From IMG/VR virus record IMGVR_UViG_3300015262_000014, positions 1-52,465 of that record: 52,465 nt of DNA. One strand, written 5' to 3'. Positions within the stretch are counted from its first letter, which is position 1; every line of letters begins with the position of its first letter. Positions 822-52,319 of this stretch are shown piece by piece. The translations under genes and the position numbers were made by a program. The notes under the pieces were generated by a model. That model was given only the letters and a program-made list of their open reading frames with translations, had not been told where the DNA came from and searched no databases. The DNA comes from a virus.

Positions 822-902
822 ATGAGTAAAACCACTTCAGACCTGTCCTCCCACACCCCCATGATGCAGCAGTATGAGCCGGAGGTGGTCGCGCGCCTTT
901 AA
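822..902 (+). pseudogene. mutS: orphan 5' end of mutS fused to prophage sequence
   Basis: The ATG at 822 begins [18 protein letters not shown], the normal Pseudomonas MutS N-terminus. After residue 18 the frame leaves the 24-bp attachment core and continues into prophage DNA as EPEVVARL, then stops, giving 26 codons in all. The remainder of mutS lies 48.9 kb away at the right end of the prophage. This stub is the host half of the split gene. Precise excision would rejoin it and give a MutS of about 863 residues. Confidence 0.9.
851..874. repeat. attL core, 24-bp direct repeat within mutS codons
   Basis: The core contains cacccccatgatgcagcagt and is identical at 49757-49780. It codes for HTPMMQQY in the mutS frame. 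Identity ends sharply to the right (t versus c). To the left the copies stay similar but with three synonymous changes in four codons. Confidence 0.92.
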
Positions 903-1186
903 TTACGTGGACTCCAGCAATTCGCTGTCTAAAACTCTACTTTGATTTAGCTGCGGTTAAGGTCAATGAATGCGCGTTAGCTTGAGGTAGTTCTAGACAG
1001 CAAAATCATCCAGATGCTGGACGCTCCCAGACGCCTTCTAAGCTGATCGATTGCGCTACATTCCGGTTACCCTGGCCAGCCGCGCTATCCGGTCATCGTT
1101 TTTACAAGGAAAAGAAGGGCTGAATGTTGAAACGGTAATGGCACATCGATATAGTCTGCCACCAAAAAAAATTCAGGGATGTGCGA
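875..1186. other. gene-free left prophage arm
   Basis: About 310 bases lie between the attachment core and the first cargo gene with no supported gene. The stretch holds the integrase arm-type heptamers listed separately, the presumed promoter of the STAS/HATPase gene, and an AGGGA ribosome binding site at 1175-1179. Confidence 0.5.
924..1001. repeat. integrase arm-type sites, left arm (inverted pair)
   Basis: gctgtcta at 924-931 and tagacagc at 994-1001 form a perfect 8-bp inverted pair. The same heptamer TAGACAG occurs twice more beside the right core (49692-49698 and 49714-49720). Four copies flanking the two cores, at 37-120 bases distance, fit the arm-binding sites of a tyrosine integrase. 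Their role is inferred from position and repetition only. Confidence 0.55.
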
Positions 1187-2170
1187 GTGCGGGTTCAGGA
1201 CGGAATTTACACGGAAAGCAACGTCATTCATTTTCCACCGTCACTGAGTGAATCGGAGCCGGGCGCGCTCTTTGAGTTTTGCGAAGCAATTCTGGCAAGT
1301 GAAGGCGTAGTAGTTCTCGACGCAAGCGCCTTTCAATTTATTGATCCCCTGGGGCTCGCAACCCTCAAATCGTCACTAGAGCGCGCGTCAATTGCCAGGC
1401 TCCATATCAGGTGGATGAGCAAAGGTCTCATTAACTACCTAGCCAGAATGGAGTTTTTCGACGGCATGATCGTCGATGGCATGGACATAGAGAAAGAACG
1501 GAATCTACTGGGTGAGCCTGACCGCTGCGTTGAACTTGTAAAGGTTGTGGACGGTCAATCGGAAGAGGTTGCTTCAAGACTTGCGCTAGCTACGGTCGGC
1601 TGGGCTCAAGGTCGTGAGCAGGAGGAACTAGACTCCTACAGGCGCCCCATTGAGTATGCCTTGAAGGAATTGCTGGGGAATGCCCTTTCCCATGCAAAGA
1701 GGGAAGGTAACTTTGGTGCGTCAGTTTGGGTCGCCTGCCAGCACTTCCGTAGTAACGGGGACGTCCGGCTTGCGATAGTTGACAACGGATGTGGTTTTCT
1801 GGCTACGCTATGGCGTCATGATCAGCTCAAAGAGCGTACAGACGTCGAAGCCATCAGAGCTGCCTTAATCGCTCGTGTGAGCTGCAATCGTGGCCCTTAC
1901 GTAGGCTATGAGACCGATAGCCAGAATCAAGGTGTAGGTTTGACCACAACCGCTAAAATCGCTGATGCCGCTGATGGCTTTCTTGTTGTAGCGAGTGGTG
2001 AGGCCTGCCTGAACACCAGAACTGATATGTCGACGTCGCTTGTCAAAGCGCCGTGGAAAGGTGTTGCGATATCATTTCACTGCAACCGCGACAAATTGCC
2101 GCAGATCAGCATTCCTGCGCTGCTCCCAGCCGTAGAGGGCGCAGTTGACGACGACATCAGTTTCATTTGA
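1187..2170 (+). CDS. STAS domain - GHKL ATPase (HATPase_c) fusion protein
   Basis: The protein has 327 residues. The GTG at 1187 was chosen because AGGGA at 1175-1179 is 7 bases upstream; a GTG at 1181 would be too close. Residues ~25-95 look like a STAS fold (VVVLDASAFQFIDPLGLATL). The second half is a GHKL ATPase: N-box ELLGNALSHA with Asn165, G1 box VDNGCGF (Asp199) and G2 box NQGVGL (Gly249, Gly251). There is no phosphoacceptor-histidine domain and no membrane segment, so it resembles an anti-sigma kinase or MutL/Hsp90-like ATPase more than a sensor kinase. The next gene is a DUF4325 STAS-like protein on the same strand. The pair recalls SpoIIAB/SpoIIAA partner switching. Function is unknown; a prophage signalling or defence role is inference. 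Confidence 0.75.
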   Translation: MRVQDGIYTESNVIHFPPSLSESEPGALFEFCEAILASEGVVVLDASAFQFIDPLGLATLKSSLERASIARLHIRWMSKGLINYLARMEFFDGMIVDGMDIEKERNLLGEPDRCVELVKVVDGQSEEVASRLALATVGWAQGREQEELDSYRRPIEYALKELLGNALSHAKREGNFGASVWVACQHFRSNGDVRLAIVDNGCGFLATLWRHDQLKERTDVEAIRAALIARVSCNRGPYVGYETDSQNQGVGLTTTAKIADAADGFLVVASGEACLNTRTDMSTSLVKAPWKGVAISFHCNRDKLPQISIPALLPAVEGAVDDDISFI

Positions 2171-2183
2171 CTAGCTTCAAGAT

Positions 2184-2211
2184 TTGCTTACTAGTGGTAC
2201 CTAGCTAAACT
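2184..2211 (+). promoter_or_regulatory. possible promoter before the DUF4325 gene
   Basis: ttgctt (2184-2189) and taaact (2206-2211) are separated by 16 bases. The match to sigma-70 consensus is moderate, and the site lies in the 97-base gap between the ATPase and STAS-like genes. It may allow separate expression of the small gene. Confidence 0.3.
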
Positions 2212-2267
2212 TTTTACCCATGCGTACGATAAACATTGTCTACGCGTACATTGCCGAGGGAAGCGCC

Positions 2268-2582
2268 ATGCAAACTCAAATCAACCTTGCTGCGGGGTCA
2301 GAGACCATTCGCACGCTTGGTATGAGGGCATCTGCCACGCCGTATCGAAAGGAAATCGAACGCTGCTTGGACACCGGCTATAGCGTCGCCATAGATTTTT
2401 CCGGTAAGGATGCCACTCAATCATTTGTCGACGAACTAATCGGCGGATTGATTCTGAAGCGAGGCAGAACTGTTCTGTCCAGCCTATCTTTTCAAAACTG
2501 TCCTGACGACGTGAAGTCGATCATTAAGTTCGTCGTTAATGATAGAGCACATCAATTGAAGACTGAGCAGGCAGTAGCCTAA
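2268..2582 (+). CDS. STAS-like domain protein (DUF4325)
   Basis: The ATG at 2268 is preceded by GAGGGAAG with good spacing and gives 104 residues. An earlier in-frame ATG at 2220 lacks such a site. The pattern 'YRKEIERCLDTGYSVAIDFSG' followed by 'DATQSFVDELIGGLI' is the hallmark of DUF4325: a beta strand ending in hydrophobic-D-F, then a loop with S-F-x-D-E. These proteins have a STAS-like fold and usually sit beside an ATPase. Here the partner is the STAS/HATPase gene just upstream. A terminator follows 20 bases after the stop, closing a two-gene unit. Confidence 0.75.
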   Translation: MQTQINLAAGSETIRTLGMRASATPYRKEIERCLDTGYSVAIDFSGKDATQSFVDELIGGLILKRGRTVLSSLSFQNCPDDVKSIIKFVVNDRAHQLKTEQAVA

Positions 2583-2601
2583 TCTATCGGATATGGAAAA
2601 A

Positions 2602-2625
2602 GCCTCGCATTGCGGGGCTTTTTTT
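2602..2625 (+). terminator. rho-independent terminator of the STAS/HATPase unit
   Basis: gcctcgc (2602-2608) pairs with gcggggc (2612-2618, one G-U) around a 3-base loop, followed by seven T. It also separates this unit from the convergent methylase gene. Confidence 0.8.
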
Positions 2626-2652
2626 GGTTTCGAGATAGGTGTTACGCCGGCG

Positions 2653-3420
2653 TCACCAGTTCAAAATCACCAGCTCGCCTTTTTTTTCGGCTACCCCCTT
2701 TCGCGGATTGGCCGTGCTGTAACGAATATCCATCGCCTCCATGCGAAACCCCTCAAACACCCGCCGGATCTCGGGATGATCGTTGATGCTTACCATCACC
2801 TTGCCATCGCAGGCTCGCATGAACTCAGCCATTCGCTCGTACTGGTCAAAGCCGAACTCGGTGCCGTAGCCCTCGGTTTTCCAGTAGGGTGGGTCCATAT
2901 AGTGGAAGGTGTGGGGCCGATCGTACTTTTCGGCGCACTTCAACCACGGCAGGTTCTCCACGTAGGTTCCCGATAGCCTCTGCCAGGCCAGCGATAGGTT
3001 TTCCTCAATCCGCAGCAGGTTGATTGCCCGGCCGGTAGTGGCGGTTCCGAATGTCTGTCCCGTGGCCTTTGCACCGAACGCGTGGTGTTGGAGGTAGAAA
3101 AACCTGGCCGCCTTCTGTATATCCGTCAGCGTCTCAGGGGACGTCATCTTTTGCCATTCGAAGATCTGCCTGGAGCTGAGCGCCCATTTGAACTGGCGCA
3201 CGAATTCCTCCAGGTGGTGCTGGACGACGCGGTACAGGTTCACCAGGTCGCCGTTGAGATCGTTAAGCACCTCGACCTTGGAGGGCTGCTCGCGCTTGAA
3301 GTACAGCGCTGCGCCGCCGGCGAACACCTCAACGTAGCATTCGTGGTCCGGAAATAGCGCCAGCAGACGTTTCGAAAGACGGCGCTTGCCGCCCATCCAT
3401 GGAACGATTGGGTTTGTCAT
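2653..3420 (-). CDS. DNA adenine methyltransferase (D12/Dam class)
   Basis: The protein has 255 residues from the ATG at 3420, which has AAGGA upstream. Motif I is PWMGGKRRL near the N-terminus (the F/W-x-G-x-K signature of Dam-class N6-adenine methylases), followed by 'EVFAGGAALYF' and 'LNDLNGDLVNLYRV'. The catalytic motif IV DPPY is at residues 176-179. Length and motif order fit phage Dam enzymes that act without a restriction partner. The likely role is protection of phage DNA or altered methyl-directed signalling. No endonuclease gene is adjacent. The gene lies downstream of umuC on the same strand (36-base gap), so it may share the SOS-controlled transcript. A fragment of a second, related gene lies at 7475-7597. 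Confidence 0.9.
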   Translation of the reverse strand: MTNPIVPWMGGKRRLSKRLLALFPDHECYVEVFAGGAALYFKREQPSKVEVLNDLNGDLVNLYRVVQHHLEEFVRQFKWALSSRQIFEWQKMTSPETLTDIQKAARFFYLQHHAFGAKATGQTFGTATTGRAINLLRIEENLSLAWQRLSGTYVENLPWLKCAEKYDRPHTFHYMDPPYWKTEGYGTEFGFDQYERMAEFMRACDGKVMVSINDHPEIRRVFEGFRMEAMDIRYSTANPRKGVAEKKGELVILNW

Positions 3421-3455
3421 TAGCAGTCCTTTGCAATGGGTTGAGGTGGTGGTGC

Positions 3456-5151: not shown

Positions 5152-5171
5152 GACGCAGCCTTTTACAGACA

Positions 5172-5187
5172 CTGTACGAATGTACAG
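5172..5187. promoter_or_regulatory. LexA (SOS) box of the umuDC operon
   Basis: ctgtacgaatgtacag matches CTGT-N8-ACAG exactly and is a near-perfect palindrome. It sits 21 bases upstream of the umuD start, where it would cover the promoter. Binding by host LexA would keep the operon off until DNA damage. Confidence 0.85.
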
Positions 5188-5247
5188 TTAATATCGCAGA
5201 TGGATTGCGGTCAATTTGGCGTAAGAGATATCTGACAAGCGGGCGCG

Positions 5248-23624: not shown

Positions 23625-24563
23625 TCAGCGGCTGCAGTACAGGTTGCCGATCGCTTTCGGGTCGATGACGCCGGAACCGAACACGTTCAAACCACGAACG
23701 AGTTTCCCGAAGTCGTTCGGGTTCGGCAGGGTTTCCATTTGGGTCATCTGGCTGGCAAAGGTGAGGCCTTTCTTGTGACCGAACATCACGTTGCTGGCCT
23801 TCTTGGTGGCCGCGACATCATCCACTGCTGTGGTGTTGTTGCTGATGAACACGGTGAAACGATCGAGCATGCCGACCTTGCCGTTGCGGAAGACCGAAGT
23901 GGAATCGCCCATAATGCTGGCGTCGCGCAAATCGGACTTTTTCAGCATGCCGTTCATCCAAGCAGGCAGAACGACCCAGCGGCCTTGCTCGGGAACGTTT
24001 TGCTCGTCGAGAACGGTGCCGCAGTCCACCAACACATCCAGGATGTTGTCCTTGGTGATCTGCACAGGTGCGCCAGCTTTGCCGAGGTTGATGCCGCCAG
24101 ACTTTGCGCCGGCGTTGTCGCCGCGGTTGGCCGCTGCAGCGTCGGCGTAGTGGCGGTTCAGCAGTTGGGTGTCGATAGCCACCTTCATCTGCTCACCGCC
24201 GTCGGTGCTGAACTCGTCCATCAGCTTGATATCGGCCTGGTAAGCATCGACGTCGTTCACCTCGAACGCGAAGTACTTGCCCTGGTCAATCTGCAGCTGC
24301 ACCTTGTCACTTACCGGCTTTTCGTAAGTAACGCCGCCGCCGATCACGTAGTCCTTGATGACAATCGACGGTACGGTGCGGATGTTGATGGTGTCGCCTT
24401 GGTTCTTGATTTCGCCCTCATAGTCGGTGTTTGCGATCTCACCGAATACGGTTGCGGCGTACAGCTTCTGCACCAACTTGCCGGACCAGAGCGCCGGGAT
24501 GAAACCCGATGCACTGGTCGAGCTGTAGTTTGGATGCCCTGGGGCGCGTGCTGGACCTGCCAT
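23625..24563 (-). CDS. major capsid protein
   Basis: The protein has 312 residues, with TAGGAG before the ATG. Conserved text includes 'FIPALWSGKLVQKLYAATVF', 'NTDYEGEIKNQGDTINIRTV' and the C-terminal 'TLPNPNDFGKLVRGLNVFGS', which together are typical of the HK97-fold coat proteins of this podovirus group. It is preceded by the scaffold gene and followed by its own terminator. It self-assembles into the capsid with the scaffold. Confidence 0.88.
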   Translation of the reverse strand: MAGPARAPGHPNYSSTSASGFIPALWSGKLVQKLYAATVFGEIANTDYEGEIKNQGDTINIRTVPSIVIKDYVIGGGVTYEKPVSDKVQLQIDQGKYFAFEVNDVDAYQADIKLMDEFSTDGGEQMKVAIDTQLLNRHYADAAAANRGDNAGAKSGGINLGKAGAPVQITKDNILDVLVDCGTVLDEQNVPEQGRWVVLPAWMNGMLKKSDLRDASIMGDSTSVFRNGKVGMLDRFTVFISNNTTAVDDVAATKKASNVMFGHKKGLTFASQMTQMETLPNPNDFGKLVRGLNVFGSGVIDPKAIGNLYCSR

Positions 24564-25683: not shown

Positions 25684-25935
25684 CTACTGGATAGGCCGCG
25701 AGGTGCTTGCCTGGATTCGCTCAAGCATCTCGCGGGATTCTTCAAACGTCTTGATCAGCTCCCTGGCCAGGCTCGCCCTGCCCTGGGCCCTGAATAAACC
25801 CTCCAGGTTGTTCACCCCCTCCAGGCTCTGCTGCGCCTCCATCAAATGACTGCTCAGTATCTCCTTGAGGTGCTTCCATTCCGGGCTGTTGGTCAGATTG
25901 ACCAGGGCTTGCCACTGTTGGTTGCTGGGTTTCAT
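25684..25935 (-). CDS. small phage protein overlapping the portal C-terminus (83 aa)
   Basis: It starts MKPSNQQWQALVNLTNSPEW; the ATG at 25935 has GGAG three bases upstream (short spacing). Balanced helices (ILSSHLMEAQQSLEGVNNLE, 'GLFRAQGRASLARELIKTFE') look like a conserved podovirus protein found after the portal. It shares 194 bases with the portal gene in another frame, where the portal reads only as low-complexity Gly/Gln/Pro. Function is unknown. Confidence 0.6.
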   Translation of the reverse strand: MKPSNQQWQALVNLTNSPEWKHLKEILSSHLMEAQQSLEGVNNLEGLFRAQGRASLARELIKTFEESREMLERIQASTSRPIQ

Positions 25936-28102
25936 TGGCTCCGCCACCTGCATGTTGAAGTTGGGCTACCACGGCACCGTTGCTCATACCGAGGCGCTGG
26001 GCCTCAGCACGGGTTTTCTCGGCCTTCGCGGTCAGTTCAGCTGTCTGGGCAGCGGTTTTCTCTGTTTCCGCTTCGACCTGCTGGCCCATCGCGGCGGCTT
26101 GCTTTTGCTGCTGTTGGGCCTGCTGGGCCTGCTGTTGCTCCTCCCGGGTCTTCATCTCGGCTTTCGTCGGGATCAGGCCTGGCATATCGAGGCTTTCAGC
26201 AACCTTGCGCAAGATCGCTGCCCTGCCCTCAAGGCCAAGGATCTGCATGTCGGTCGGGTTGTTGGTGAAACTCAGGAACTGAGTGCGAGCGTTCAGCGTC
26301 TGCTCACGCTGGAGCATCGCGTTAGCGCCGCGGGCCACGACTTTGCAGTCGCCCTTGATGGCGTTGTCATCGGAATAGCGCATGTTGAACAACCACAGCG
26401 CCTCAATGACACGACGCACCACCCCACGGTCGATGTGACGGATCGCGTCCTTGATGCCCTTGTTGGCCGACTCCATCAGCATCGACAGGCCGCTGGCCGT
26501 GTTGCCAGCTCCACCGACCTTTTCGGCACCGTAGATGTATCGCGGGATATTCGTCGCGTCGTCCGCGCGCTTCTCCCAGGAGTCATAGACAGCCTGAAGC
26601 TCCCCGGCCATGCTGACCGGCTGGTAAAAGCGAATCACCGGTGACGTCGCGCCACCCTGCATCCCTGGCGTCTGGCCGCTTTTCACCCGCCAACGTTTCA
26701 GCGGATACATCTCGTTGGGGTTCTCACCTGGCTGCAAGCGGTCTTCATCAACTTCCACCTGCGGGCCGCTGGCAAACGCCATGTTGTTGGCCTGCGCGCG
26801 GGCTGTTGAGCCGCAGAAGTCTTGCACGTCACTCATCAGCTCAGGAATCGACATACCCCAGAACGAGCCGGGCACGATCTGGAACGATGCTTTGTGATAT
26901 GGCCGGCCGCCCAAAGGGTTGCGGTTGAACACGCACCGGATGACGTGATTGCCGATCAGGATCGCATCAACCTGGTACTCATCAAGCACGTCCGGCACTT
27001 GGGATGGATCAATGCCCCATTGCAGGAGCATCAGCCCCTGGGCACCGCCCCAATAGTGCAGCCCCTCAATGGTTTCCCCGTTATTGATCATCCAGTCGCC
27101 GGCCTTGTCCTCAAGCCGCGCGCGCTGCGAATCAGTTGCGAGCCACTCACGCAGGCCGCCTTGACCATGCTCGGCAAGCACGGCACGAACCGCGTTGTCG
27201 CTGTAGCCGGGAACACCAGTGAGCGCGTTGAGGCGCGACCGTGTGTAGCGTTCGCGCTCGATGATGAATGCGCCGTCATCGGTGTTTGTCGAATCTGGAG
27301 ACGGGTAGATGTCGAAGGGCGAAACCCGGTGGAACAGCGGCTGAATCTCCTCTGTTTCGATCATCTGCCAGTTTTGGCCCCAGGCAATCTGCGGCACGCG
27401 TTGAAGCAATGGCCCTTTAACGAACGCCGCCGGATAGATGGTGAAGTCGTCGATGAATTCCTCGAGCGCGGTTTCCCACCCGCCCTCGGCCAACTGGTCG
27501 GCGATAAGCGTTTCATGTGCCTCGCTTGCCTCCTTGGCCTTGGCCTGGATCAGCTCACGCAGCTTCACCTCCAGTTCGGTAGGGTCAGGCATTGTCTGTG
27601 GCGGCGCAACCTGCCCCTGCTCCCCTTGCTCCCCTTGCTCCCCTTGCTCCCCCTGCTGGGCCTGCTGGGCCTGCATCATCTGCTGGGCGAGCTTCTGCTG
27701 AAATGCAGCAAGAAACTCGGGCGGGATGTCCGCCACCGGCGTTGGATCTAGCCCCCATGGGTGCCCATTGACCGGGATCAGGATGTCACGAATCCAGGAG
27801 GCGCCCGCGCGGCACTTGGTGGTGGTCAGCTTGGGATAAATCTCGCTGCCGCCAGCTTCCCGGATCGCTTGGAGTTTCGTCTCCTCATGCTTTCCTTTCT
27901 GGCGCCGCGCGCAGTCCAGCAGCCGATCATCGATTTCACGCTTGGCGTTTTTGGCAGACTCGAAGCACCGACGGATGTGCGCCGCCAAAGACGACTGCAC
28001 TTGTAGAGCGCGCCTGCTTTGCAGCGCCTGCTCCTCAGCGGCGACGTCATCAGCATGCAGGTCTGCGGCGCTCCTGAATTGCAGCAAACCTAATTCAGCC
28101 AT
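25742..28102 (-). CDS. portal protein
   Basis: The protein has 786 residues, the large portal class of short-tailed phages. An N-terminal helical part (ESAKNAKREIDDRLLDCARR) is followed by the portal core with 'FDIYPSPDSTNTDDGAFIIE' and 'QIVPGSFWGMSIPELMSDVQ', and a helical barrel. Residues ~150-163 hold an EQG tandem repeat and residues ~640-786 are Gln/Ala then Gly-rich. It forms the dodecameric DNA channel at the capsid vertex and is followed by scaffold and coat genes. Confidence 0.88.
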   Translation of the reverse strand: MAELGLLQFRSAADLHADDVAAEEQALQSRRALQVQSSLAAHIRRCFESAKNAKREIDDRLLDCARRQKGKHEETKLQAIREAGGSEIYPKLTTTKCRAGASWIRDILIPVNGHPWGLDPTPVADIPPEFLAAFQQKLAQQMMQAQQAQQGEQGEQGEQGEQGQVAPPQTMPDPTELEVKLRELIQAKAKEASEAHETLIADQLAEGGWETALEEFIDDFTIYPAAFVKGPLLQRVPQIAWGQNWQMIETEEIQPLFHRVSPFDIYPSPDSTNTDDGAFIIERERYTRSRLNALTGVPGYSDNAVRAVLAEHGQGGLREWLATDSQRARLEDKAGDWMINNGETIEGLHYWGGAQGLMLLQWGIDPSQVPDVLDEYQVDAILIGNHVIRCVFNRNPLGGRPYHKASFQIVPGSFWGMSIPELMSDVQDFCGSTARAQANNMAFASGPQVEVDEDRLQPGENPNEMYPLKRWRVKSGQTPGMQGGATSPVIRFYQPVSMAGELQAVYDSWEKRADDATNIPRYIYGAEKVGGAGNTASGLSMLMESANKGIKDAIRHIDRGVVRRVIEALWLFNMRYSDDNAIKGDCKVVARGANAMLQREQTLNARTQFLSFTNNPTDMQILGLEGRAAILRKVAESLDMPGLIPTKAEMKTREEQQQAQQAQQQQKQAAAMGQQVEAETEKTAAQTAELTAKAEKTRAEAQRLGMSNGAVVAQLQHAGGGANETQQPTVASPGQSDQQPGMEAPQGDTEQSFDGGAAEPGGGEQPGGFIQGPGQGEPGQGADQDV
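27618..27653. repeat. 9-bp tandem repeat inside the portal gene
   Basis: Four units of (c/t)tgctcccc encode successive Gly-Glu-Gln triplets in the portal. The unit length is a multiple of three, so copy-number slippage would keep frame. Confidence 0.8.
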
Positions 28103-28448
28103 GGATCATTGCCTCATGAACGTTGTTGATTTCAGCCTGGCGGCCGGAGCGGCGCAGTTTCGCGCCGTGCTCCAGTTTCCGCAGGTTGGCCAGCAGATCC
28201 TGCATGTAGGTGACGGGGTCGGCCGCAAACTCGGCCAACTTGACGTTGAGTGTCACGCCCAGGTCATGAGCCATCTCGAACTGCACCCGAACTGCAGGGT
28301 GTCCGCCATCCGGCTCCTTGATCTCTACTGCGTCGACTTGGACCAAGCCAATGTCTCGACGTAGTTGAAAGCTCTGGACGGTGAGCGGGGCAACCAGGCG
28401 GGCTATGACGTCGGCGACCTGCTTCCATTCAATAAACATAGTGGTCAT
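28095..28448 (-). CDS. conserved phage protein between terminase and portal (117 aa)
   Basis: It starts MTTMFIEWKQVADVIARLVA and contains alternating beta text (VQVDAVEIKEPDGGHPAVRV) and a helical C-terminus. It overlaps the TerL gene by 4 bases and the portal by 8 bases, so it is part of the packaging operon. Function is not recognised; possibly a packaging or portal accessory. Confidence 0.6.
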   Translation of the reverse strand: MTTMFIEWKQVADVIARLVAPLTVQSFQLRRDIGLVQVDAVEIKEPDGGHPAVRVQFEMAHDLGVTLNVKLAEFAADPVTYMQDLLANLRKLEHGAKLRRSGRQAEINNVHEAMIHG

Positions 28449-30127
28449 GTGTGCGCGCTCCAGTTGCGTCGGGCTCGATCTGTGTTTGATGTAGTTGGCG
28501 CCGCGGAGATTGCCCCTGCCGTTGCCTCGAAGACCCCGCAGCGGGCCAGGGTTTCAAATGCCTTGGCCCCATGGCTTGCCCAGTCGTGACGCGGCTGATC
28601 CTTGTACACGCCCAACCTCAGATCCCACTCTTTCCGGTAGTTGTCGATGCAGTCGATCAGCCTCGACACGCCTGCGGTTCTTGGCTTGCCTGTATCGGCA
28701 TCGCCAGTCGACGCGCGGGTGTCTTGCTCATCCTCGGCGAACCAACACAGCGGCAGGAAGTTACGCACCGCCTGCACGCCCTCGCTGTTGCGGGAGACGC
28801 GTGGGACGATCTGAAACGTGATCCCGTATTGCTTTGCCACATCGATACGGGACTTCCCCGTACCGATCTCGCGCACCACGATGTCGTGCGGGGCGTAGTG
28901 GGCACCGTAGGAATAACCCAGCTTTTTGAGCAGATCGCCGTAGTACTCCATGCCCTCGCCGGAATGCTCGATGTAATCGATGATGTGCACCTGGCGTCCC
29001 ACCACCTGGAACAGCACGATGGACATAGCGTCCCCCATACCCAAGTCCCATGCAGTGAATACCGGCAAGGTAGGGTTGCGAGTCACCGCCTTGGTGATTC
29101 GGCCCTGCTGCCGCAGGAATCGCATCTGCGTGAGGTAGTAAGCACCCTTGATGCCTTGGTCGAAAGCTTCGTCAGGCGTGGCTGGGTATTCGCGCTTCAT
29201 GTCGTCGTGGAGCGCTTCGGCCTTTTTGGCGTACCAGGCTTGCTGGGCGCGGTCGAGGCGGATTCCGTGTTTGGCTGCCAACTCGGCGAAGTACTCCTGC
29301 AACCACTGCGGCACCACCACCTGGTCGAATGCCTCCAGGCGATACGTGGGGTCTTTGAACCAGGGGAAGAAGTGGAACTGCCAATCCATCACCGTCGGCG
29401 TGCGGCCGGCGTCTTTAATGGCCCTGGCCAACTCGCAATAGGTGAAGAAGTAGCCTTCACGACCCTCGGCGGTGCTTTCAATGGTGACCCGATTGCCCAG
29501 GCCCACGGCCTCAAACGCACCGGTGACGATTTCCTGGGCCTTGTCCGGGCTCAGCTTGCAGATCTTGCCGAACTCCGACACATGCAGGCGCTGGAGCGTG
29601 CCACCCCGGAACGAGGTCGACACCTGAATGCTGGAGCCGTTGTCGAAAATGTAACCTTGGTCCTTGTCACTGCGCGGTACCGGCAGGCGCATTCCGATCA
29701 GCTTGAAAATTGCAGACCACGCCGGGTCGCCTGACAGCTTTTCGTAGGCAAACCTGATTTTGTTACGGTAGATCTCTTTCGCGTCCGGCAACGTGTGGCA
29801 GATGCAGCCGGCACTGTAGTTCCTGATGAACAGGCAATCGTCGAGCGCGTCGATCATCTCGAAGGTGGTAAAGCCCAACTGCCGGGCCTTGAGGATGATG
29901 TCGCGGTTATGCTCGTCGAGGAATCGCTCGCGCTGCTGCTGGTTGGGCTTGAAGCGCTGAACCTTGCCGTTCTTGTCCTTGATTTTGTACAGGGCGTTGA
30001 GCCTGTACCACTTGTTGCTCAGGGCTTTCAGCAGTAAAGCCTTGCCCTTGAGCTGCTTGGCGAGGTGTAGGGCGATTAACTCGTCACCCTCACGCACCAG
30101 GCGCTGGCGGTCGGTTTCATTCCTCAT
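28445..30127 (-). CDS. terminase large subunit (TerL)
   Basis: The protein has 560 residues from the ATG at 30127 (MRNETDRQRLVREGDELIAL), which overlaps the TerS end by 11 bases. The ATPase domain has a Walker A-like ILKARQLGFTT in place of GxxxxGKT, the deviant form normal in TerL, and a downstream hydrophobic strand. The C-terminal nuclease begins at 'PVFTAWDLGMGDAMSIVLFQ' with the first catalytic Asp. It translocates and cuts concatemeric DNA with TerS at the portal. Confidence 0.9.
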   Translation of the reverse strand: MRNETDRQRLVREGDELIALHLAKQLKGKALLLKALSNKWYRLNALYKIKDKNGKVQRFKPNQQQRERFLDEHNRDIILKARQLGFTTFEMIDALDDCLFIRNYSAGCICHTLPDAKEIYRNKIRFAYEKLSGDPAWSAIFKLIGMRLPVPRSDKDQGYIFDNGSSIQVSTSFRGGTLQRLHVSEFGKICKLSPDKAQEIVTGAFEAVGLGNRVTIESTAEGREGYFFTYCELARAIKDAGRTPTVMDWQFHFFPWFKDPTYRLEAFDQVVVPQWLQEYFAELAAKHGIRLDRAQQAWYAKKAEALHDDMKREYPATPDEAFDQGIKGAYYLTQMRFLRQQGRITKAVTRNPTLPVFTAWDLGMGDAMSIVLFQVVGRQVHIIDYIEHSGEGMEYYGDLLKKLGYSYGAHYAPHDIVVREIGTGKSRIDVAKQYGITFQIVPRVSRNSEGVQAVRNFLPLCWFAEDEQDTRASTGDADTGKPRTAGVSRLIDCIDNYRKEWDLRLGVYKDQPRHDWASHGAKAFETLARCGVFEATAGAISAAPTTSNTDRARRNWSAHT

Positions 30128-30680
30128 CACCAACTGCCTCAGCCAGCAGATCCTCAAGGGATTTGCCTGTGCTTTCCCGTTCTTTGTCGATGTCCAGACC
30201 GTGGGCCTGGCGTTCGAGCTTGATCAGGCGCTCCAGGGACTGCGTAGCGTGGCCGATGCTCTTGCCCACATAGTCCAGGGGAATGTCGATCTCCACCGGG
30301 TCACCCTTCTGGGTCATCACTGCGATCTTGCCAGCGGCAACTTGCTCATGAATACGATCGACGTACTGCTGCGTCAGGTCGCGAGTTCTGGCAATTACAA
30401 TCTGGTGACCGCGTACCAACTGGGCACCGGCCTCGGCGGCCTGCTCGACGATCTCGGCGTCGTTGGTTGCCTCTGCGACAGCAGCAGCAGCGGCCCGACC
30501 GGTCTTCTCCCTGACGCGCTGACGAATCATCTCAGACAGATCTTTCTGCCATTCATACTTATCGGCACGGTTGCGGATCGAGCTTTCCGACACATTGTGC
30601 CGGCGACCCAGTTCGCGGTTCGTAAAGCAGCCAGTCCGGTAATCCCTCTCGACGGCTGCCCAATCACATTTAGCAGCCAT
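30117..30680 (-). CDS. terminase small subunit (TerS)
   Basis: The protein has 187 residues; AAGGAAG precedes the ATG at 30680. The N-terminal helix-turn-helix reads DWAAVERDYRTGCFTNRELG and 'RHNVSESSIRNRADKYEW'. A long helical oligomerisation region and an acidic tail (LEDLLAEAVGDEE) follow. It recognises the packaging site and feeds DNA to TerL, whose gene overlaps it. Confidence 0.85.
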   Translation of the reverse strand: MAAKCDWAAVERDYRTGCFTNRELGRRHNVSESSIRNRADKYEWQKDLSEMIRQRVREKTGRAAAAAVAEATNDAEIVEQAAEAGAQLVRGHQIVIARTRDLTQQYVDRIHEQVAAGKIAVMTQKGDPVEIDIPLDYVGKSIGHATQSLERLIKLERQAHGLDIDKERESTGKSLEDLLAEAVGDEE

Positions 30681-30727
30681 GGGGGAGCTTCCTTTGCTTG
30701 GAGATCGGGTTGTTGAATTGGTGTGTG

Positions 30728-31183
30728 TTATGCCAGCGCCCGGCGGAGCCCTTCGGCTAAAACCGCCTCTGGATAGGCGAAGCCTGCACATTCGTGGGAA
30801 ATGATGCTGGTAACCATCACGCGCAGTGTTGCCAGCTTCCGGACGTCGATCACGTCGTTGGCATTCACACCCAAGCGGCGGGCCACGGCCGCTATGTAGG
30901 CCTCGGTGTTGTTCTCGTTGCCCGGCGCCCACCTGGTGATGGTTTCTCGCACCGTGTCGATGCCTGGGCCACCCACGCCGGGCATGCCGTCTTTGCCGCG
31001 GTAGTTGATAACAAGCTTGCCCAGGGCGCGGATACCGTTCTCAGGTGTGTCAAAGCGTGCAAAACGTGGGTATGGCACGCCGACTTCCAGGCCAAGCTGC
31101 CCTTGCCAGGCATTGCGCGGGTTGTAGTCGATGTTGCCGGGGTTGTTGTTGCGCACGCCGCGAGGCGTAGTGATCGTGGTCAT
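30728..31183 (-). CDS. endolysin-like muralytic protein (151 aa)
   Basis: The ATG at 31183 overlaps the Ntn-hydrolase stop (ATGA) and has GAGGG upstream. The N-terminus PRGVRNNNPGNIDYN is the signature of a phage family of peptidoglycan-degrading proteins found either as endolysins or as virion-associated lysins. 'RFARFDTPENGIRALGKLVI' and 'ITRWAPGNENNTEAYIAAVA' are conserved family blocks. It lies close to holin and spanins, which supports a lysis role. Confidence 0.75.
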   Translation of the reverse strand: MTTITTPRGVRNNNPGNIDYNPRNAWQGQLGLEVGVPYPRFARFDTPENGIRALGKLVINYRGKDGMPGVGGPGIDTVRETITRWAPGNENNTEAYIAAVARRLGVNANDVIDVRKLATLRVMVTSIISHECAGFAYPEAVLAEGLRRALA

Positions 31184-34710: not shown

Positions 34711-34796
34711 TGGCGGAAGGCGGAGGAGTCGAACCCCTACCGTTTCCAGCAGCACCGGGTTCAAACCGGCTTGCCTACCACTTGGCGCCGCCTTCC
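34711..34796 (-). tRNA. tRNA-Ser(UGA)-like gene, slightly non-canonical
   Basis: On the minus strand the acceptor GGAAGGC pairs with GCCTTCC, and discriminator G plus encoded CCA follow (34711-34714). The D-arm contains AAGTGGTA. The anticodon stem GCCGG/CCGGT encloses TTTGAAC, so the anticodon is UGA (serine). A 17-base variable region can form an arm, as in class II tRNAs, and the T-loop is TTCGACT. Deviations are no U at position 8, an acceptor helix extendable to 9 bp, and one mismatch in the T-stem. It may be a functional phage tRNA or a degenerate one. Confidence 0.65.
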
Positions 34797-45171: not shown

Positions 45172-45191
45172 AGGCACACCGATGCATGGTT

Positions 45192-45256
45192 ATAAACATA
45201 AATCAACAATACGTTTATTTAATAAACATCGCAACCCCGGTAAACTTTCCGTTTAT
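45192..45256. promoter_or_regulatory. immunity operators between cro and cI
   Basis: Half-sites ataaac/gtttat occur at 45192, 45213, 45222 and 45251. GTTTATTTAATAAAC (45213-45227) is a perfect 7+1+7 palindrome. They lie in the 83-base divergent gap and should hold the paired promoters. The cI ATG (45255) overlaps the last half-site, so its message may be nearly leaderless. Confidence 0.7.
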
Positions 45257-45974
45257 GAATACTCAACACTCTGGCATTCGCCTAAAAGAAGAGCTCCACC
45301 ACCAGGGCATTGCGCAGGCTGAATTCGCAAAATCCATGGGTGTGAGCGCTCAAACGCTCAACAACTGGTTTGTCCGCGGGGTACCGGGACGCTGGCTCAT
45401 CCCTGTCGCCAAGATGCTCAAGATCGGCATCAGTTGGCTGAATACTGGTGAAGGCCCACGACATTTATTTGGAAGGGGCGAAGCAGATAGGGACATGCAC
45501 CACCTGAGCTTGTGGGACGAGCAGACCCCCCTAGATGATGATGAAGTAGAGGTGCCGTTTTTACAGGAGGTCGAACTGGCCGCAGGTGCGGGGAGATTTT
45601 CAATCGAGGAAAGCTCCGACTCAAATCTTCGCTTCAGCAAAAAAAATCTGAGGGAGAACGGTGTTCAGTTTGATCAAGCCAGATGTGTAACCGTACGCGG
45701 AAACAGCATGACGCCAGTACTCCGGGATGGGGCTACGGTGGGCGTAAACATTGGTCGTCGTAGCGTCGGTGAGCTGGCGGATGGGGAGCTGTATGCGATC
45801 AACCACAACGGGCAGCTTCGCATCAAACAGGTGTACCGCTTACCGACCGGCATCAGGCTGAGAAGCTTCAACCGAGAAGAGCATCCCGACGAGGAGTACA
45901 CCTTCCAGCAAATGCAAGATCAGGAAATCAGCATACTCGGTCACGTATTTTGGTGGGCTATGTACGCGAAATAG
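45255..45974 (+). CDS. CI-type phage repressor with S24 peptidase domain
   Basis: The protein has 239 residues. The N-terminal helix-turn-helix reads GIAQAEFAKSMGVSAQTLNN. The linker contains the probable self-cleavage site Ala110-Gly111, and the S24 domain has nucleophile Ser151 in RGNSMTP and Lys191 in LRIKQVY. RecA-dependent cleavage would induce the prophage in SOS, in step with the LexA-controlled umuDC. No ribosome binding site is visible before the ATG at 45255. Confidence 0.92.
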   Translation: MNTQHSGIRLKEELHHQGIAQAEFAKSMGVSAQTLNNWFVRGVPGRWLIPVAKMLKIGISWLNTGEGPRHLFGRGEADRDMHHLSLWDEQTPLDDDEVEVPFLQEVELAAGAGRFSIEESSDSNLRFSKKNLRENGVQFDQARCVTVRGNSMTPVLRDGATVGVNIGRRSVGELADGELYAINHNGQLRIKQVYRLPTGIRLRSFNREEHPDEEYTFQQMQDQEISILGHVFWWAMYAK

Positions 45975-47500: not shown

Positions 47501-47695
47501 ATGTTTCTGACAGCAGAGGAAGTTGCCGACCTGACCGGCTACAAGAAGCCAGGGGCACAGATAAAGTGGCTGACCGCCGAACGTTACGGGTTCGCGGTAG
47601 GTGGTGATGGGCACCCGAAGGTGCTGCGCCAGGTTGTCATTGGCCGGCTGGGTGGTATTCAATCAAGGAAGGGGCCGGAACTTCGGCTGGGTTGA
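47501..47695 (+). CDS. DUF4224 excisionase-like protein (64 aa)
   Basis: AAAGGAGGTAGGT precedes the ATG. The text MFLTAEEVADLTGYKKPGAQ, 'IKWLTAERYGFAVGGDGHPK' is a typical DUF4224 protein: a small winged-helix found directly upstream of phage integrases and acting as a recombination directionality factor or regulator. The integrase starts 10 bases later. Confidence 0.8.
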   Translation: MFLTAEEVADLTGYKKPGAQIKWLTAERYGFAVGGDGHPKVLRQVVIGRLGGIQSRKGPELRLG

Positions 47696-47705
47696 GGTGA
47701 AGATC

Positions 47706-48698
47706 ATGCGTCCGCGCAAAAAGGACCGGCACCTGCCGGCGTGCATGTACCAGAAGCATGGCGCTTATTACCTGGTCCGCAAGGGCAAGTGGAAGCGCCT
47801 GGGCACCGACTTCCAGGCATCCCTGGCCGAGTACGCCAAGCTGCTGGATAAAGGCAGCCAGGGCGGCATGCCCAAGCTGATCGACGACGCGCTCGAGCAC
47901 ATGCGCACCAGGACGAAGCCGCCGCTGAAGCCGAACACTCTCAAGCAGTACGAGGCGGCGTGCGAGCGGCTGAAGGAAAACTTCGCCGACTTTGAGCCCC
48001 GCGAGGTACTGCAGCGGCACGTTGTCGCCCTCAAGCTGCACATGGCCGACACACCGAATATGTCGAACCGGGTGATCTCGGTGTTGCGGGCAGTATTCAC
48101 TTACGCCCTTGAGCAGCAGATAGTCGACTCAAATCCATGCATCGGCGTCCGTCGGCACGTGGAGCACAAGCGCGATAGGTATATCACTCACGGCGAATTC
48201 CAGGCCATCTGCGCCCACTCCAGCGACAACATGCGGGTTATATACGAGATGTGCTATCTGACCGGCCAGCGCATTGGAGACGTCCTTGCTATCCGCCTGG
48301 TGGATATTAGCGCCGAAGGAATCGCCTTCAAGCAGGAGAAGACGAATGCCAGGTTGCTGGTGCAGATGACTCCTGACCTGGAGGATCTGATCTCCAGGAT
48401 CAAGGCGCTGCCGAGAAAGATTCGGGGGCTCACCCTATTCTGCTCCCCTCGCGGCGGGAAGCCGGTGCACTACAGCTCGGTCAAGGACGCCTTCGCCATC
48501 AGTTGCAGAAAAGCCGGCGTCGAGGATGCGAGCCTTCATGACCTTCGAGCAAAGTCCCTTTCGGATACCGACGACCAAGGCAACGATGCTCAAAAGTTGG
48601 GGGGGCACACAGACGCCAAGATGACGCAGCGTTATCTGCGCTTGCGCAAAATCAACGTAGGTCTTCCACCAACAATGCCAAAAGATGTAAAACTTTAA
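47706..48698 (+). CDS. int: tyrosine recombinase (phage integrase)
   Basis: The protein has 330 residues from the ATG at 47706 (GAGGTGAAG upstream); an upstream ATG at 47601 lies in the excisionase gene. An N-terminal arm-binding part and core-binding part are followed by the catalytic domain with Arg189 (GQRIGD), Lys212, His278-x-x-Arg281 (LHDLRAK), His301 (LGGHTD) and the nucleophile Tyr310 (QRYLR). It directs recombination at the 24-bp mutS core, probably with the TAGACAG arm sites. Confidence 0.93.
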   Translation: MRPRKKDRHLPACMYQKHGAYYLVRKGKWKRLGTDFQASLAEYAKLLDKGSQGGMPKLIDDALEHMRTRTKPPLKPNTLKQYEAACERLKENFADFEPREVLQRHVVALKLHMADTPNMSNRVISVLRAVFTYALEQQIVDSNPCIGVRRHVEHKRDRYITHGEFQAICAHSSDNMRVIYEMCYLTGQRIGDVLAIRLVDISAEGIAFKQEKTNARLLVQMTPDLEDLISRIKALPRKIRGLTLFCSPRGGKPVHYSSVKDAFAISCRKAGVEDASLHDLRAKSLSDTDDQGNDAQKLGGHTDAKMTQRYLRLRKINVGLPPTMPKDVKL

Positions 48699-48705
48699 AG
48701 CTCGC

Positions 48706-49542
48706 TTAGGACTGAAGGATATACCTGACAAAATCCACGCCCTTATCAGTAAGTTTGTCATCATCCATCAACCCGTAACGTCGCATGTATCTAATAGCGG
48801 AATTACCGAAAGCTGGATCATCAATAACTTTCTGAAATTGCCGACGGATGAATAAAGGCCGTCCGTTTACTGTATCTTTAGGAAAGTGCTTTAAAACAAA
48901 TTCCCCAAGATAGCCTCTGAAGCCAGGATCAACTTCATCACCTAGTTCACGACGCTGCTCGGCCAGCTCGGCTTTGGACTGCTCTAGCTCTCTGCTCAAA
49001 CTAGACAACCGTTCAAGCAACTGATCTCTTTCTTCGCCCGCAACTGATGCGCGCTGCATCAATTCCTCAATAATATCCTGCCTTCTTGCCTCCTGCTCTT
49101 CGATTTCGGCCTTCTTAGCTTCGGAATTTTCAACCCTAGAAGCCGCAGCAACTGGATCAAATGAAAACCTATCGAACTTTTGGCTTAAATCATTATAACC
49201 TTGACCAATATTGGTTAGCTTCTCTCCAAACCCAGAATCAATTCTTCCGAGCATTTCCGACACTTCTTTTGTGAATTTATAAGTATGTGTATAGAACGTC
49301 CTCGAAGACTCATCAGCTTTGAAGTAAAATAACGCAGAAAGCGCAACCGATGAAACCGCCAGAAAAAGACTAACCAGATCTGTAAAGCTAAAATCTTTGA
49401 GGTCAATATTAAAGTCAGCAGTGGCAAACCGCACACCTACTACAATGATAAGCGCGACGACTGCAAGATCTCTTACATTCGCAAGCGTTAAAAAACCAGT
49501 GACAGATCGTTTCTTTTCGTTATTTTCATTAGTCTCTGACAT
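48706..49542 (-). CDS. coiled-coil membrane protein of unknown function
   Basis: The protein has 278 residues and lower GC than the backbone. Two hydrophobic segments lie at about residues 26-44 and 56-74 (LVSLFLAVSSVALSALFYF). A coiled coil follows at ~140-200 ('DQLLERLSSLSRELEQSKAE'). A C-terminal winged-helix-like domain ends the protein ('FIRRQFQKVIDDPAFGNSAI' with 'YMRRYGLMDDDKLTDKGVDF'). It is tail-to-tail with int (7-base gap) and beside attR. That place is typical for lysogenic-conversion and phage-exclusion genes. Confidence 0.75.
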   Translation of the reverse strand: MSETNENNEKKRSVTGFLTLANVRDLAVVALIIVVGVRFATADFNIDLKDFSFTDLVSLFLAVSSVALSALFYFKADESSRTFYTHTYKFTKEVSEMLGRIDSGFGEKLTNIGQGYNDLSQKFDRFSFDPVAAASRVENSEAKKAEIEEQEARRQDIIEELMQRASVAGEERDQLLERLSSLSRELEQSKAELAEQRRELGDEVDPGFRGYLGEFVLKHFPKDTVNGRPLFIRRQFQKVIDDPAFGNSAIRYMRRYGLMDDDKLTDKGVDFVRYILQS

Positions 49543-49739
49543 TACATTCCCTTGAGTGATGGCATTTTAATGCGAACAATCTAGCACATCAAAATCTCTG
49601 AATCCCACACGCCTTTTTCGAACACGATCCACGGCGGACGCTCTCCATCAAACGACCTCGACCACAATCTGCGGATATTTCCCTGTAGTATTAGACAGAT
49701 ACGAATCGTCAAATAGACAGGAAGAGCTGAAAGCCCCGT
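49543..49739. promoter_or_regulatory. right prophage arm: must drive mutS in the lysogen
   Basis: These 197 bases separate the divergent membrane-protein gene from the restored mutS start. They contain the attR arm sites and a GGAAGAG site at 49719-49725, 14 bases before the ATG. No promoter pair is clear. Any mutS transcription in the lysogen has to start here or further into the prophage. Confidence 0.5.
49692..49720. repeat. integrase arm-type sites, right arm
   Basis: tagacag occurs at 49692-49698 and 49714-49720 in the same orientation, 22 bases apart and 37-59 bases before the core. Confidence 0.55.
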
Positions 49740-52319
49740 ATGACAGACCTCTCCAGCCACACCCCCATGATGCAGCAGTACTGGCGCCTCAAGAACCAGC
49801 ACCCTGATCAGCTGATGTTCTACCGCATGGGCGACTTCTACGAGATCTTCTACGAAGACGCGAAGAAGGCCGCCAAGTTGCTGGATATCACCCTGACAGC
49901 GCGCGGGCAGTCGGCAGGGCAGTCGATCCCGATGTGTGGGATTCCCTACCATTCGTTGGAAGGCTATCTGGTCAAACTGGTGAAATTGGGCGAGTCAGTG
50001 GTGATCTGTGAGCAGATCGGCGATCCGGCCACCAGCAAGGGGCCGGTGGAACGTCAGGTGGTGCGCATTATTACGCCGGGGACGGTGAGTGATGAGGCGC
50101 TGCTGGATGAGCGCCGCGACAACCTGATTGCAGCGGTGTTGGGCGACGAGCGCCTGTTCGGCCTGTCGGTGCTGGACATCACCAGTGGCAACTTCAGCGT
50201 GCTGGAGATCAAAGGCTGGGAGAACCTGCTGGCGGAGCTGGAGCGTATCAACCCCGTGGAGTTATTGATCCCGGATGATTGGCCGAAGGATCTGCCGGCG
50301 GAAAAACGCCGTGGGGCCAAGCGCCGTGCGCCGTGGGACTTCGAACGCGATTCGGCGCTGAAAAGCCTGTGCCAGCAGTTCTCGGTGCAGGACCTTAAAG
50401 GCTTCGGTTGTGAAACCTTAACCCTGGCCATCGGTGCAGCAGGTTGCTTGCTGGGCTATGCCAAGGAAACCCAGCGCACGGCCCTGCCGCATTTGCGCAG
50501 CCTGCGTCATGAGCGTCTGGACGATACCGTGGTGCTCGATGGCGCAAGCCGTCGCAACCTGGAGCTGGACACCAACCTGGCCGGCGGGCGTGACAACACC
50601 CTGCAATCGGTGGTCGACCGTTGCCAGACGGCCATGGGTAGCCGCTTGCTGACCCGCTGGCTGAACCGTCCGCTGCGCGACTTGAGCGTGCTGCAGGCGC
50701 GTCAGACGTCTATTACTTGCCTGCTGGACGGCTATCGCTTTGAAAAGCTGCAGCCACAGCTGAAGGAAATCGGCGATATCGAGCGCATCCTGGCGCGTAT
50801 CGGTCTGCGTAATGCGCGCCCGCGCGACTTGGCGCGCCTGCGTGATGCCCTCGCAGCCTTGCCACAGTTGCAAGCGGCGATGACCGAACTGGATACGCCG
50901 CACCTGCAACAGCTCGCGGTCACGGCCGGTACTTACCCGGAACTGGCGGCGTTGCTGGGAAAAGCCATCATCGACAACCCGCCGGCAATCATCCGCGACG
51001 GCGGCGTATTGAAGACCGGTTACGACAGCGAGCTGGACGAACTCCAAGCCCTGAGCGAGAACGCCGGGCAATTCCTGATTGACCTGGAAGCCCGCGAGAA
51101 AGCCCGTACCGGCCTGGCCAACTTGAAAGTCGGCTACAACCGCGTGCACGGTTATTTCATCGAATTACCGAGCAAGCAGGCCGAGTCGGCGCCGATCGAC
51201 TATCAACGTCGCCAGACACTGAAAGGTGCCGAACGGTTTATCACTCCCGAACTGAAAGAATTCGAAGACAAGGCGCTGTCGGCGAAGAGCCGCGCCCTGG
51301 CTCGGGAGAAGATGCTCTATGAAAACCTGCTTGAAGACCTGATCAGCCAGTTGGCGCCGCTGCAGGACACCGCCAGCGCCCTGGCCGAACTGGATGTACT
51401 GAGCAACTTGGCCGAACGTGCATTGAACCTTGACCTGAACTGCCCGCGTTTTGTCAGCGAGCCGTGCATGCGCATCGTGCAAGGTCGCCACCCGGTCGTA
51501 GAGCAGGTGCTGACCACGCCGTTCGTCGCCAACGATCTGTCGCTGGACGACGATACCCGCATGCTGGTGATCACCGGTCCGAACATGGGCGGTAAATCCA
51601 CCTACATGCGCCAGACCGCTTTGATCGTGCTCCTGGCGCATATCGGCAGCTTTGTGCCGGCGGCCAGTTGCGAGCTGTCCCTGGTGGATCGCATTTTCAC
51701 CCGGATCGGTTCCAGCGACGACCTGGCCGGTGGCCGTTCGACGTTTATGGTGGAAATGAGCGAGACCGCCAACATCTTGCACAACGCCACCGAACGCAGC
51801 CTGGTGTTGATGGACGAAGTGGGCCGCGGCACCAGCACCTTCGACGGCCTGTCCCTGGCCTGGGCGGCGGCCGAGCGCCTGGCGCACTTGCGTGCCTACA
51901 CCCTGTTTGCCACCCACTACTTCGAGCTGACTGTTTTGCCGGAGAGCGAACCGTTGGTGGCCAACGTGCATCTGAACGCCACCGAGCACAACGAGCGTAT
52001 CGTGTTCCTGCACCACGTACTGCCGGGCCCGGCCAGCCAGAGTTACGGCCTGGCCGTGGCCCAACTGGCGGGTGTGCCGAATGACGTGATCACCCGCGCC
52101 CGCGAACACCTCAGCCGCCTGGAAACCACGGCCCTGCCCCATGAAACGGCGGTAGCCAGCCCCGCCAAAGCCTCCAGCAAACCGGCCGCACCGCATCAAA
52201 GCGACATGTTCGCCAGCCTGCCCCATCCGGTGCTGGATGAGCTGGCAAAGCTTGACCTGGATGACTTGACGCCGCGGAAAGCGCTCGAAATGTTATATGC
52301 ACTGAAGACTCGGATATAA
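49740..52319 (+). CDS. mutS: DNA mismatch repair protein MutS with prophage-supplied N-terminus
   Basis: The protein has 859 residues. The first residues [16 protein letters not shown] come from the prophage arm and core. Domain I carries the mismatch-wedging motif [10 protein letters not shown]. Walker A is [15 protein letters not shown], followed by '[20 protein letters not shown]', Walker B '[16 protein letters not shown]' and 'FATHYFELT'. The protein ends normally at a Pseudomonas-type C-terminus. The sequence differs from the displaced native start (MSKTTSDLSS...) only before the core. MutS should be active if expressed, but its promoter and leader are now phage-borne. Confidence 0.97.
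49757..49780. repeat. attR core, 24-bp direct repeat within mutS
   Basis: It is identical to 851-874 and codes for the same HTPMMQQY in the active gene. The upstream flank is prophage DNA that encodes MTDLSS. Confidence 0.92.

Follow-up and report, generated by a model that had tools for sequence, protein, structure and literature searches.

How can a temperate phage settle inside the coding sequence of mutS, whose product strongly affects the mutation rate, and yet leave its lysogen an open gene? The question is raised by the 52,465 nucleotides (nt) of the IMG/VR virus record IMGVR_UViG_3300015262_000014—hereafter the window, i.e. the whole stretch that was analysed—where a prophage of about 48.9 kb lies inside the mutS of a Pseudomonas host. 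The answer that we consider very probable is that a temperate phage integrates into the mutS codons for HTPMMQQY, that the left arm of the phage attachment site (attP) substitutes the first codons of the gene, leaving an open and full-length MutS, and that excision would be scarless and in frame. What can be read directly in the sequences is a duplicated core with its two junctions, a sister genome whose site is empty, the attP found in the related phage phiAH14a, and the conservation of the frame and of the start in the related arms examined.

The events would then run as follows. The tyrosine integrase would recombine attP with the bacterial attachment site (attB) inside codons 11–18 of mutS; the left arm of attP would bring substitute first codons together with a ribosome-binding region; integration would exchange the host leader MSKTTSDLSS for MTDLSS, MutS staying full-length and open; and excision would put the host leader back in frame, with no scar. 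The lysogen would have a roughly normal amount of MutS, and the phage-borne leader may be kept functional because a lysogen devoid of mismatch repair would be a poor host.

Junctions in mutS, the empty site and related insertions

The 24-bp core CCACACCCCCATGATGCAGCAGTA is present in exactly two copies in the window, one at the left junction (attL) and one at the right junction (attR), and is absent from the opposite strand (Table 1). The identity between the two copies ends at the core borders on both sides, and the core-to-core distance is 48,906 bp. Translated, the core reads HTPMMQQY, codons 11–18 of mutS. The frame opened by the native ATG runs through 18 host codons, then through 8 codons of the phage arm, and stops at 902. 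At the other end, the ATG at 49740 opens in frame a hybrid MutS which possesses all five Pfam MutS domains and whose residues 4–857 align with solved MutS chains (phmmer). The host form would count 863 residues instead of 859, with 10 residues instead of 6 preceding HTPMMQQY. Both leaders contain Asp-Leu-Ser-Ser, encoded by GAC-CTG-TCC-TCC in the host and by GAC-CTC-TCC-AGC in the phage, i.e. three base differences, each synonymous. An earlier reading of the window, made from its letters only (the sequence-only reading), had described a core inside the mutS coding sequence, a native ATG stranded with its first 18 codons, a new ATG supplied by the phage at 49740, Asp-Leu-Ser-Ser kept in spite of three synonymous differences over four codons, and a MutS of 859 versus about 863 residues; it was right on each of these points, as well as on the host version being regained when the flanks are joined, to which we now come.

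The empty site is found in the sister genome G026 (locus L214), where mutS is uninterrupted, starts with the same native leader as in the window, and encodes a MutS 98% identical. Once joined, the two flanks of the prophage align to L214 with 542 identical columns out of 579 (93.6%) and one gap only, which falls in the non-coding DNA far ahead of the ATG and not at the junction. As the joined flanks match L214 in frame, the stranded piece is the ancestral host start, and a precise excision would restore this start in frame. We infer that excision takes place in this strain. Besides, the joined-flank query began at position 451 of the window and the match to L214 begins only at about 696; upstream of this point come a fragment resembling SocA (Panacea) and a protein matching the phage family phrog_33656, possibly another mobile segment beside mutS.

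The attP is displayed by Pseudomonas phage phiAH14a (KU708004), in which the phage leader and the core are joined to phage DNA, and whose integrase is 91.6% identical over 95% of the query. According to the parts of its description covered here, the phiAH14a prophage was induced with mitomycin C (PMC4936722); the main text of that paper mentions neither mutS, attP nor attB, the site being unnamed there. The crossover region can be narrowed to ATGATGCAGCA, the stretch common to six lysogen records (one of them the window) in which both junctions are present. We also observed on one contig (IMGVR 3300011452_000001, loci L097, L131 and L043) an attL-type junction together with an attP-type junction about 100 nt from one end; this succession of phage arm, core and phage arm at one end is either a tandem prophage or an assembly join.

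Searching with the integrase gave 69 loci, 60 in viral contigs and 9 in named genomes: P. lactis, P. parakoreensis, P. frederiksbergensis, P. kitaguniensis, P. songnenensis, Stutzerimonas nosocomialis and three Pseudomonas sp. The core lies downstream of the integrase in 59 of these loci, and is followed by mutS in 51 and by other DNA or a contig edge in 8; the remaining 10 reach a contig end before any core. Core matches were kept only where the downstream peptide fits the HTP pattern, and counts derived from a pattern scan of viral contigs are to be read as "at least". Among 298 sampled genomes of the genus, 9 have an integrase match with E <= 1e-60, and each of the 9 matches precedes mutS, with which it is co-directional, at a distance of 0.06 to 2.2 kb. 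Each of the 15 related genomes carrying the integrase has a single MutS match, the E limits used being 0.001 and 1e-20. For a more distant integrase locus, L086, no near match was found in E. coli genomes.

We gathered 57 distinct arms on the sole criterion of an integrase match of at least 50%, with de-duplication on 75 nt; 51 of them are followed by mutS. In each of the 57, a start codon precedes the core in frame and no stop interrupts the stretch that separates them; the start codon is ATG in 55. By comparison, 200 mononucleotide shuffles give a start in 21.8 arms on average and in 32 at most (ATG only: mean 10.8, maximum 18), and the two shifted frames in 20 and 4 arms (ATG only: 1 and 3). 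The start is likewise kept in 59 of 59 arms of a wider set including motif-chosen arms, from which L077, L140 and L146 (integrase 44–50%) are set apart, there being 62 distinct arms before this removal. L086 (38%) is counted neither in the 57 arms nor in the arm-site counts given below, and L242, with no integrase in its locus, stands outside the 57.

Expression of the hybrid gene and repeats of the attachment arms

The phage start of the window pairs better with the Shine-Dalgarno partner than the native start, with values of -3.3 and 0.1 respectively; over the arms the median is -2.6 (n=49), against -0.5 for starts without integrase or arm motif (n=81), by what is a rough measure. Three points weigh against the explanation proposed above. 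The Shine-Dalgarno value is a simple duplex score computed against an anti-Shine-Dalgarno sequence; the comparison set consists partly of viral contigs and may hold arms of other element families; and a consensus scan of 49543–49739 gave no sigma-70-like match along the strand of mutS.

This last point bears on the transcription of the hybrid gene. Lying 49 kb from it, the host promoter is unable to serve it, so some phage-side transcript must. The sequence-only reading invoked phage-controlled transcription, and a phage-supplied promoter giving MutS a regulation unlike the host's is a possibility also raised in the parts covered of Chu et al. 2017 (PMC5296598), where an integrated element, that of strain 12B01, supports a working MutS. 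Such a promoter is a serious candidate here, which we nevertheless place somewhat short of probable. One plus-strand sigma-70-like match, a weak one (9/12), lies at 49499–49526, within the accessory gene, with 214 nt between it and the ATG. Over 48600–49800 we counted 2 promoter-like sites versus 1.7 in shuffles, neither of them on the mutS strand within 49543–49739, and 0 terminators; over 400–1300, 1 promoter-like site versus 0.7 and 3 terminators versus 1.2 in shuffles. The conserved blocks of the leader region amount to repeats plus the start region, and the repeats conserved at 49543–49739 are better explained as integrase arm-type sites than as a promoter. Moreover, in 38 of 59 distinct attR (150-nt de-duplication) the integrase match ends just 74–103 nt from the core; given so short a gap, either a promoter inside it would overlap the TAGAC sites described below, or mutS would be read from the co-directional integrase side, and such a read-through is an alternative to a dedicated promoter. 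Phage-controlled transcription in the form initially claimed finds no support in the scan of 49543–49739.

By their geometry, the TAGAC repeats look like arm-type sites of the integrase. Counted from the core start of attP they lie at -65 and -43 (direct), +76 (inverted) and +143 (direct), and these four positions are identical in the window phage and in phiAH14a; over the phage, TAGAC/GTCTA has a background rate of 0.53 per kb. Both left sites are present in 46 of the 57 integrase-chosen arms and at least one in 52, and none is found in 26 distinct mutS upstreams from genome loci without integrase match. A TAGAC site is present in 2 of 94 mutS starts whose locus has no integrase match: L091, which is on the same contig as L022 and carries the arm of L022, and L242, in G172, with an integrase 2.2 kb upstream. 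On the other side of the core, the two sites occur together in 21 of 29 distinct non-mutS right sides (each alone is counted in Table 1); L138 and L146 have one of the two, and L077, L113, L140, L142, L179 and L211 have neither. Among these incomplete right sides, some probably do not belong to the phage arms of the family.

This geometry tolerates some variation. In L051, L058, L059 and L100, whose integrase is about 62% identical, +76 and +143 are kept and the left sites lie at -62 and -42. Exceptions are L048, deprived of the outer left site, L211 (54% integrase), deprived of all four, and L043, which has an extra site at +29 and whose sequence is too short for +143. In the arms of the GLSS clade the second TAGAC falls within the reading frame in 9 of 10 cases, e.g. 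ATGAGTATTAGACAG, MSIRQ. As a side observation, a more distant integrase (54%) is found at the same mutS site in L211 (KM389229, Pseudomonas phage F_TK1718sp/PAK) and L085, with the leader MNKPNTDIAQ or MNKPNTDLAQ and without TAGAC arm sites.

The location of the putative sites -48 and -26 from the ATG leads to another reading, in which the integrase and a directionality factor, bound to the arm sites of attR, would lower mutS expression during induction, with recovery once the host promoter is rejoined. The frequency of the sites in the arms and their absence from the upstreams without integrase match are in its favor, as is the short gap of 38 of the 59 attR, where any promoter would overlap them; an analogue is known in KplE1, whose attL region overlaps the intS promoter and where IntS represses about 5-fold (PMC2951348, in the parts covered). 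On the other hand, binding of the integrase to TAGAC is deduced from the geometry of the repeats, 5 of 57 arms are without both exact sites, the consensus scan found no promoter at the attR leader, and TAGAC sites are expected for recombination anyway. We therefore regard this reading as unlikely.

In its complete form—arm-type sites doubling as a mutS operator, mismatch repair lowered in induced cells and coming back after excision rejoins the host promoter—the proposal seems to us quite doubtful. Were it true, the mutation rate would be tied to prophage induction throughout a widespread family of Pseudomonas phages, mutS not being lost; and the geometry of the arm sites makes this regulatory switch a specific, testable hypothesis. 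Lysogeny may more generally alter mismatch-repair levels without breaking mutS, the phages rewriting its first codons and its promoter context.

Codon changes in the phage-borne leader

Coming back to the substitution of the first codons by the attP arm, does the leader bear traces of its use as a gene? The sequence-only reading saw in the three synonymous differences an effect of selection for a working MutS N-terminus. Three bases are too thin an argument alone, so we carried the comparison, codon by codon, to a larger sample of related arms, ranked by their non-coding identity (-75 to -19) to the window arm: 18 arms stand at 0.82 or above, the next ones at 0.60. Over the five codons following the ATG, the 18 nearest arms show 5 variable sites, all 5 at third positions and synonymous, with 0 amino-acid changes; upstream, the variable sites are distributed 7/7/8 over the codon positions. 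Choosing the arms by the peptide MTDLSS instead of the non-coding similarity yields the identical 18 arms and the same result. Five third positions out of 5, taken at random among 15 sites, would come up 1 time in 3003; this value is a guide only, and no clean probability, since the 18 arms are related and comprise just 8 leader haplotypes.

Several observations weigh against a wider use of this result. At a looser non-coding identity limit of 0.55, which lets in 22 arms, amino-acid changes appear in 2 of the 5 variable leader codons. Of the 21 arms whose integrase is at least 85% identical, 18 read MTDLSS, 2 MESLSS and 1 MSDLSS. Over the 16 codons after the ATG in the GLSS clade, 8 are amino-acid-changing, 4 synonymous only and 4 invariant, the last four leader codons varying only synonymously. 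The MSS[LI]S[DE] group has 2 amino-acid-changing and 3 synonymous codons, and the D[LV]SA group 1 and 3; the synonymous counts of these two groups and of GLSS are moreover tilted towards selection, because the groups were chosen by peptide. What is kept in every arm examined is the frame and the start, and residues are kept mainly near HTPMM. These data support selection on codons for the clade of the window; between clades the residues of the leader change, and to that extent the selection first proposed holds in part only.

That the synonymous differences would reflect the age of a host-derived attP copy, its frame being kept by recombination with host mutS and not by selection, is improbable: the leader does resemble leaders such as MSDLSA at starts without integrase match, and GAC-CTC-TCC, the codons of the phage arm, also occurs in the host leader at the L097 attL-type junction, which makes an origin from such a host possible, but the 18 near arms use CTY with AGC or AGT where the host of the window and 12 of 12 native starts examined use CTG, a mismatch that leaves no sign of a recent conversion from these hosts, and frame and start are preserved throughout the 57 arms.

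Prophage genes and comparison with known elements

The gene set of the prophage looks full. It comprises a tyrosine integrase, a CI/S24 repressor, an Ant anti-repressor, a DNA polymerase-like protein and DnaB/DnaC-type proteins (helicase and loader); for structure and packaging, both terminase subunits, a portal/head-tail adaptor, a major head protein, an internal virion protein and tail fibres. Relatives of the internal virion protein are found in 158 phage records, 104 of them of Vibrio, which is in keeping with a podovirus without being proof. The phage announced as complete and podovirus-type looks complete as far as its gene set goes, and the podovirus type is plausible.

Table 1. Coordinates of the mutS junctions, putative arm-type sites and main prophage genes in the window
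Feature	Position	Strand	Remark
Stranded host mutS start	822..902	+	Native leader shared with the uninterrupted mutS at L214 (sister genome)
Left 24-bp core copy (attL)	851..874	+	Exact repeat
GTCTA, putative arm-type site, core +76 (inverted)	927..931	-	Offset kept in 22/29 distinct non-mutS right sides
TAGAC, putative arm-type site, core +143	994..998	+	Offset kept in 22/29 distinct non-mutS right sides
Major head protein	23625..24563	-	phrog_267, 5e-64
Portal / head-tail adaptor	25742..28102	-	phrog_332, 3e-68
Terminase large subunit	28445..30157	-	phrog_2, 2e-26
Terminase small subunit	30117..30932	-	phrog_1206, 5e-39
CI-like repressor (S24 peptidase)	45186..45974	+	Strand shared with the integrase gene and mutS
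Tyrosine integrase, 330 residues	47706..48698	+	From Met-36 of the open reading frame opening at 47601
Accessory gene between the integrase gene and the mutS leader	48706..49542	-	Apparent membrane segments and coiled coil
TAGAC, putative arm-type site, core -65	49692..49696	+	48 bp before ATG
TAGAC, putative arm-type site, core -43	49714..49718	+	26 bp before ATG
Phage-supplied mutS leader	49740..49757	+	ATG ACA GAC CTC TCC AGC = MTDLSS; its final base, 49757, is also where the core starts
Hybrid mutS of the lysogen, 859 residues	49740..52319	+	Open throughout
Right core copy (attR)	49757..49780	+	Exact repeat

Some observations on other genes can be added. A tRNA-Ser (TGA) lies within the prophage at 34711–34796 (-). 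At its left end a GHKL-type ATPase (1181–2170) adjoins a DUF4325 STAS-like protein (2220–2582); the two match weakly consecutive parts of the DISARM DrmA profile, in an order along the profile that is curious. We did not retain DrmA for them, as the matches (E 7e-7 and 2e-5) cover just positions 39–247 and 300–401 of 1750. For the accessory gene, the candidates JetC/LmuB (PADLOC, E 1e-4 to 1e-2), SMC/EzrA/FliT and the phrog_95 "integrase" (E 4e-4) were all judged to be coiled-coil matches and were not retained.

This accessory gene occupies a slot. The distance from the integrase to the core exceeds 300 nt in 21 of 59 distinct attR, and in 18 of the 21 distinct gap sequences the longest open reading frame is antisense to mutS. 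The slot was seen in L010, L012, L017, L019, L022, L030, L061, L066, L067, L089 and L204, with contents such as the membrane/coiled-coil family of the window, a Zeta_toxin (PF06414, L012 protein) and an SDH_protease (PF01972, L019 protein), types being assigned by eye except for L012 and L019; by eye again, genes like that of the window are in the slot of L010, L022, L030 and L204. In L011, L018 and L048 the slot holds a plus-strand gene whose product matches the N-terminus of the integrase over its first 27 residues or so (57–62% identity, L011 and L048) and continues with an unrelated C-terminal part, HNH-like by eye; the L011 protein has no Pfam or NCBIfam match. This protein possibly competes for the putative arm-type sites.

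How does the prophage of the window compare with other elements inserted at the beginning of genes? The papers cited from here on were covered in part, and our comparisons bear on those parts. The streptococcal chromosomal islands, first taken as its analogue, share with it a mobile element at a mismatch-repair gene: SpyCI of Streptococcus pyogenes (PMC4129442) sits at the 5' end of mutL, and mutL transcription is halted according to PMC5296598. Here the insertion is inside mutS and the start is replaced; with mutS as target and an open reading frame restored, assignment to the mutL-silencing islands was rejected, and the closest precedent is to be sought among the mutS elements of Chu et al. 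2017. The dusA-associated integrases also replace the 5' end of their target by element sequence, with putative promoters on both versions (PMC4482086), and SXT, of the SXT/R391 integrative and conjugative elements, enters the 5' end of prfC (PMC2791158, PMC2654960); both have other target genes and we claim no membership. The prophage/tailocin clusters of P. fluorescens (Mavrodi et al. 2009, PMC2647930) are likewise phage-derived DNA beside mutS in Pseudomonas, but they are placed between mutS and cinA and not inside the mutS frame. Phage phiAH14a has the same leader and the same four site positions in its attP; its record is of 55 kb, and the likeness is known from the integrase and the attachment region.

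The elements described in 2017 insert in the HTPMMQQ motif of mutS in Beta- and Gammaproteobacteria, range from 4 to > 150 kb, include some prophages and supply their own start and promoter region (PMC5296598). A scarless excision was sequenced in P. putida F1, E. coli 536 and B. multivorans CF2, while the excision in V. splendidus 12B01 leaves a 2-bp scar with hypermutation. The likeness with the window covers several features: the same gene and motif are hit, the integrase gene is beside mutS with one accessory gene between, the element supplies the in-frame start (ATG 49740), the orphaned host start (822–874) matches the uninterrupted gene of L214, and Pseudomonas is among the hosts. Contrary to the 2-bp frameshift left in 12B01, the joined flanks of the window are in frame. 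In open-licence PMC full texts, supplements being outside the search, the HTPMMQQ motif was found in PMC5296598 alone; the words "arm" and "excisionase" have 0 occurrences in the main text of that paper, and arm-type sites and the codon pattern are absent from the parts covered. The element of the window is a further member of these mutS HTPMMQQ-motif elements. New here are the comparison of arms, which gives evidence that the leader is maintained, and the geometry of the arm sites: this comparison goes beyond those parts of PMC5296598 by showing that the phage copy of the gene start stays readable in the arms examined.

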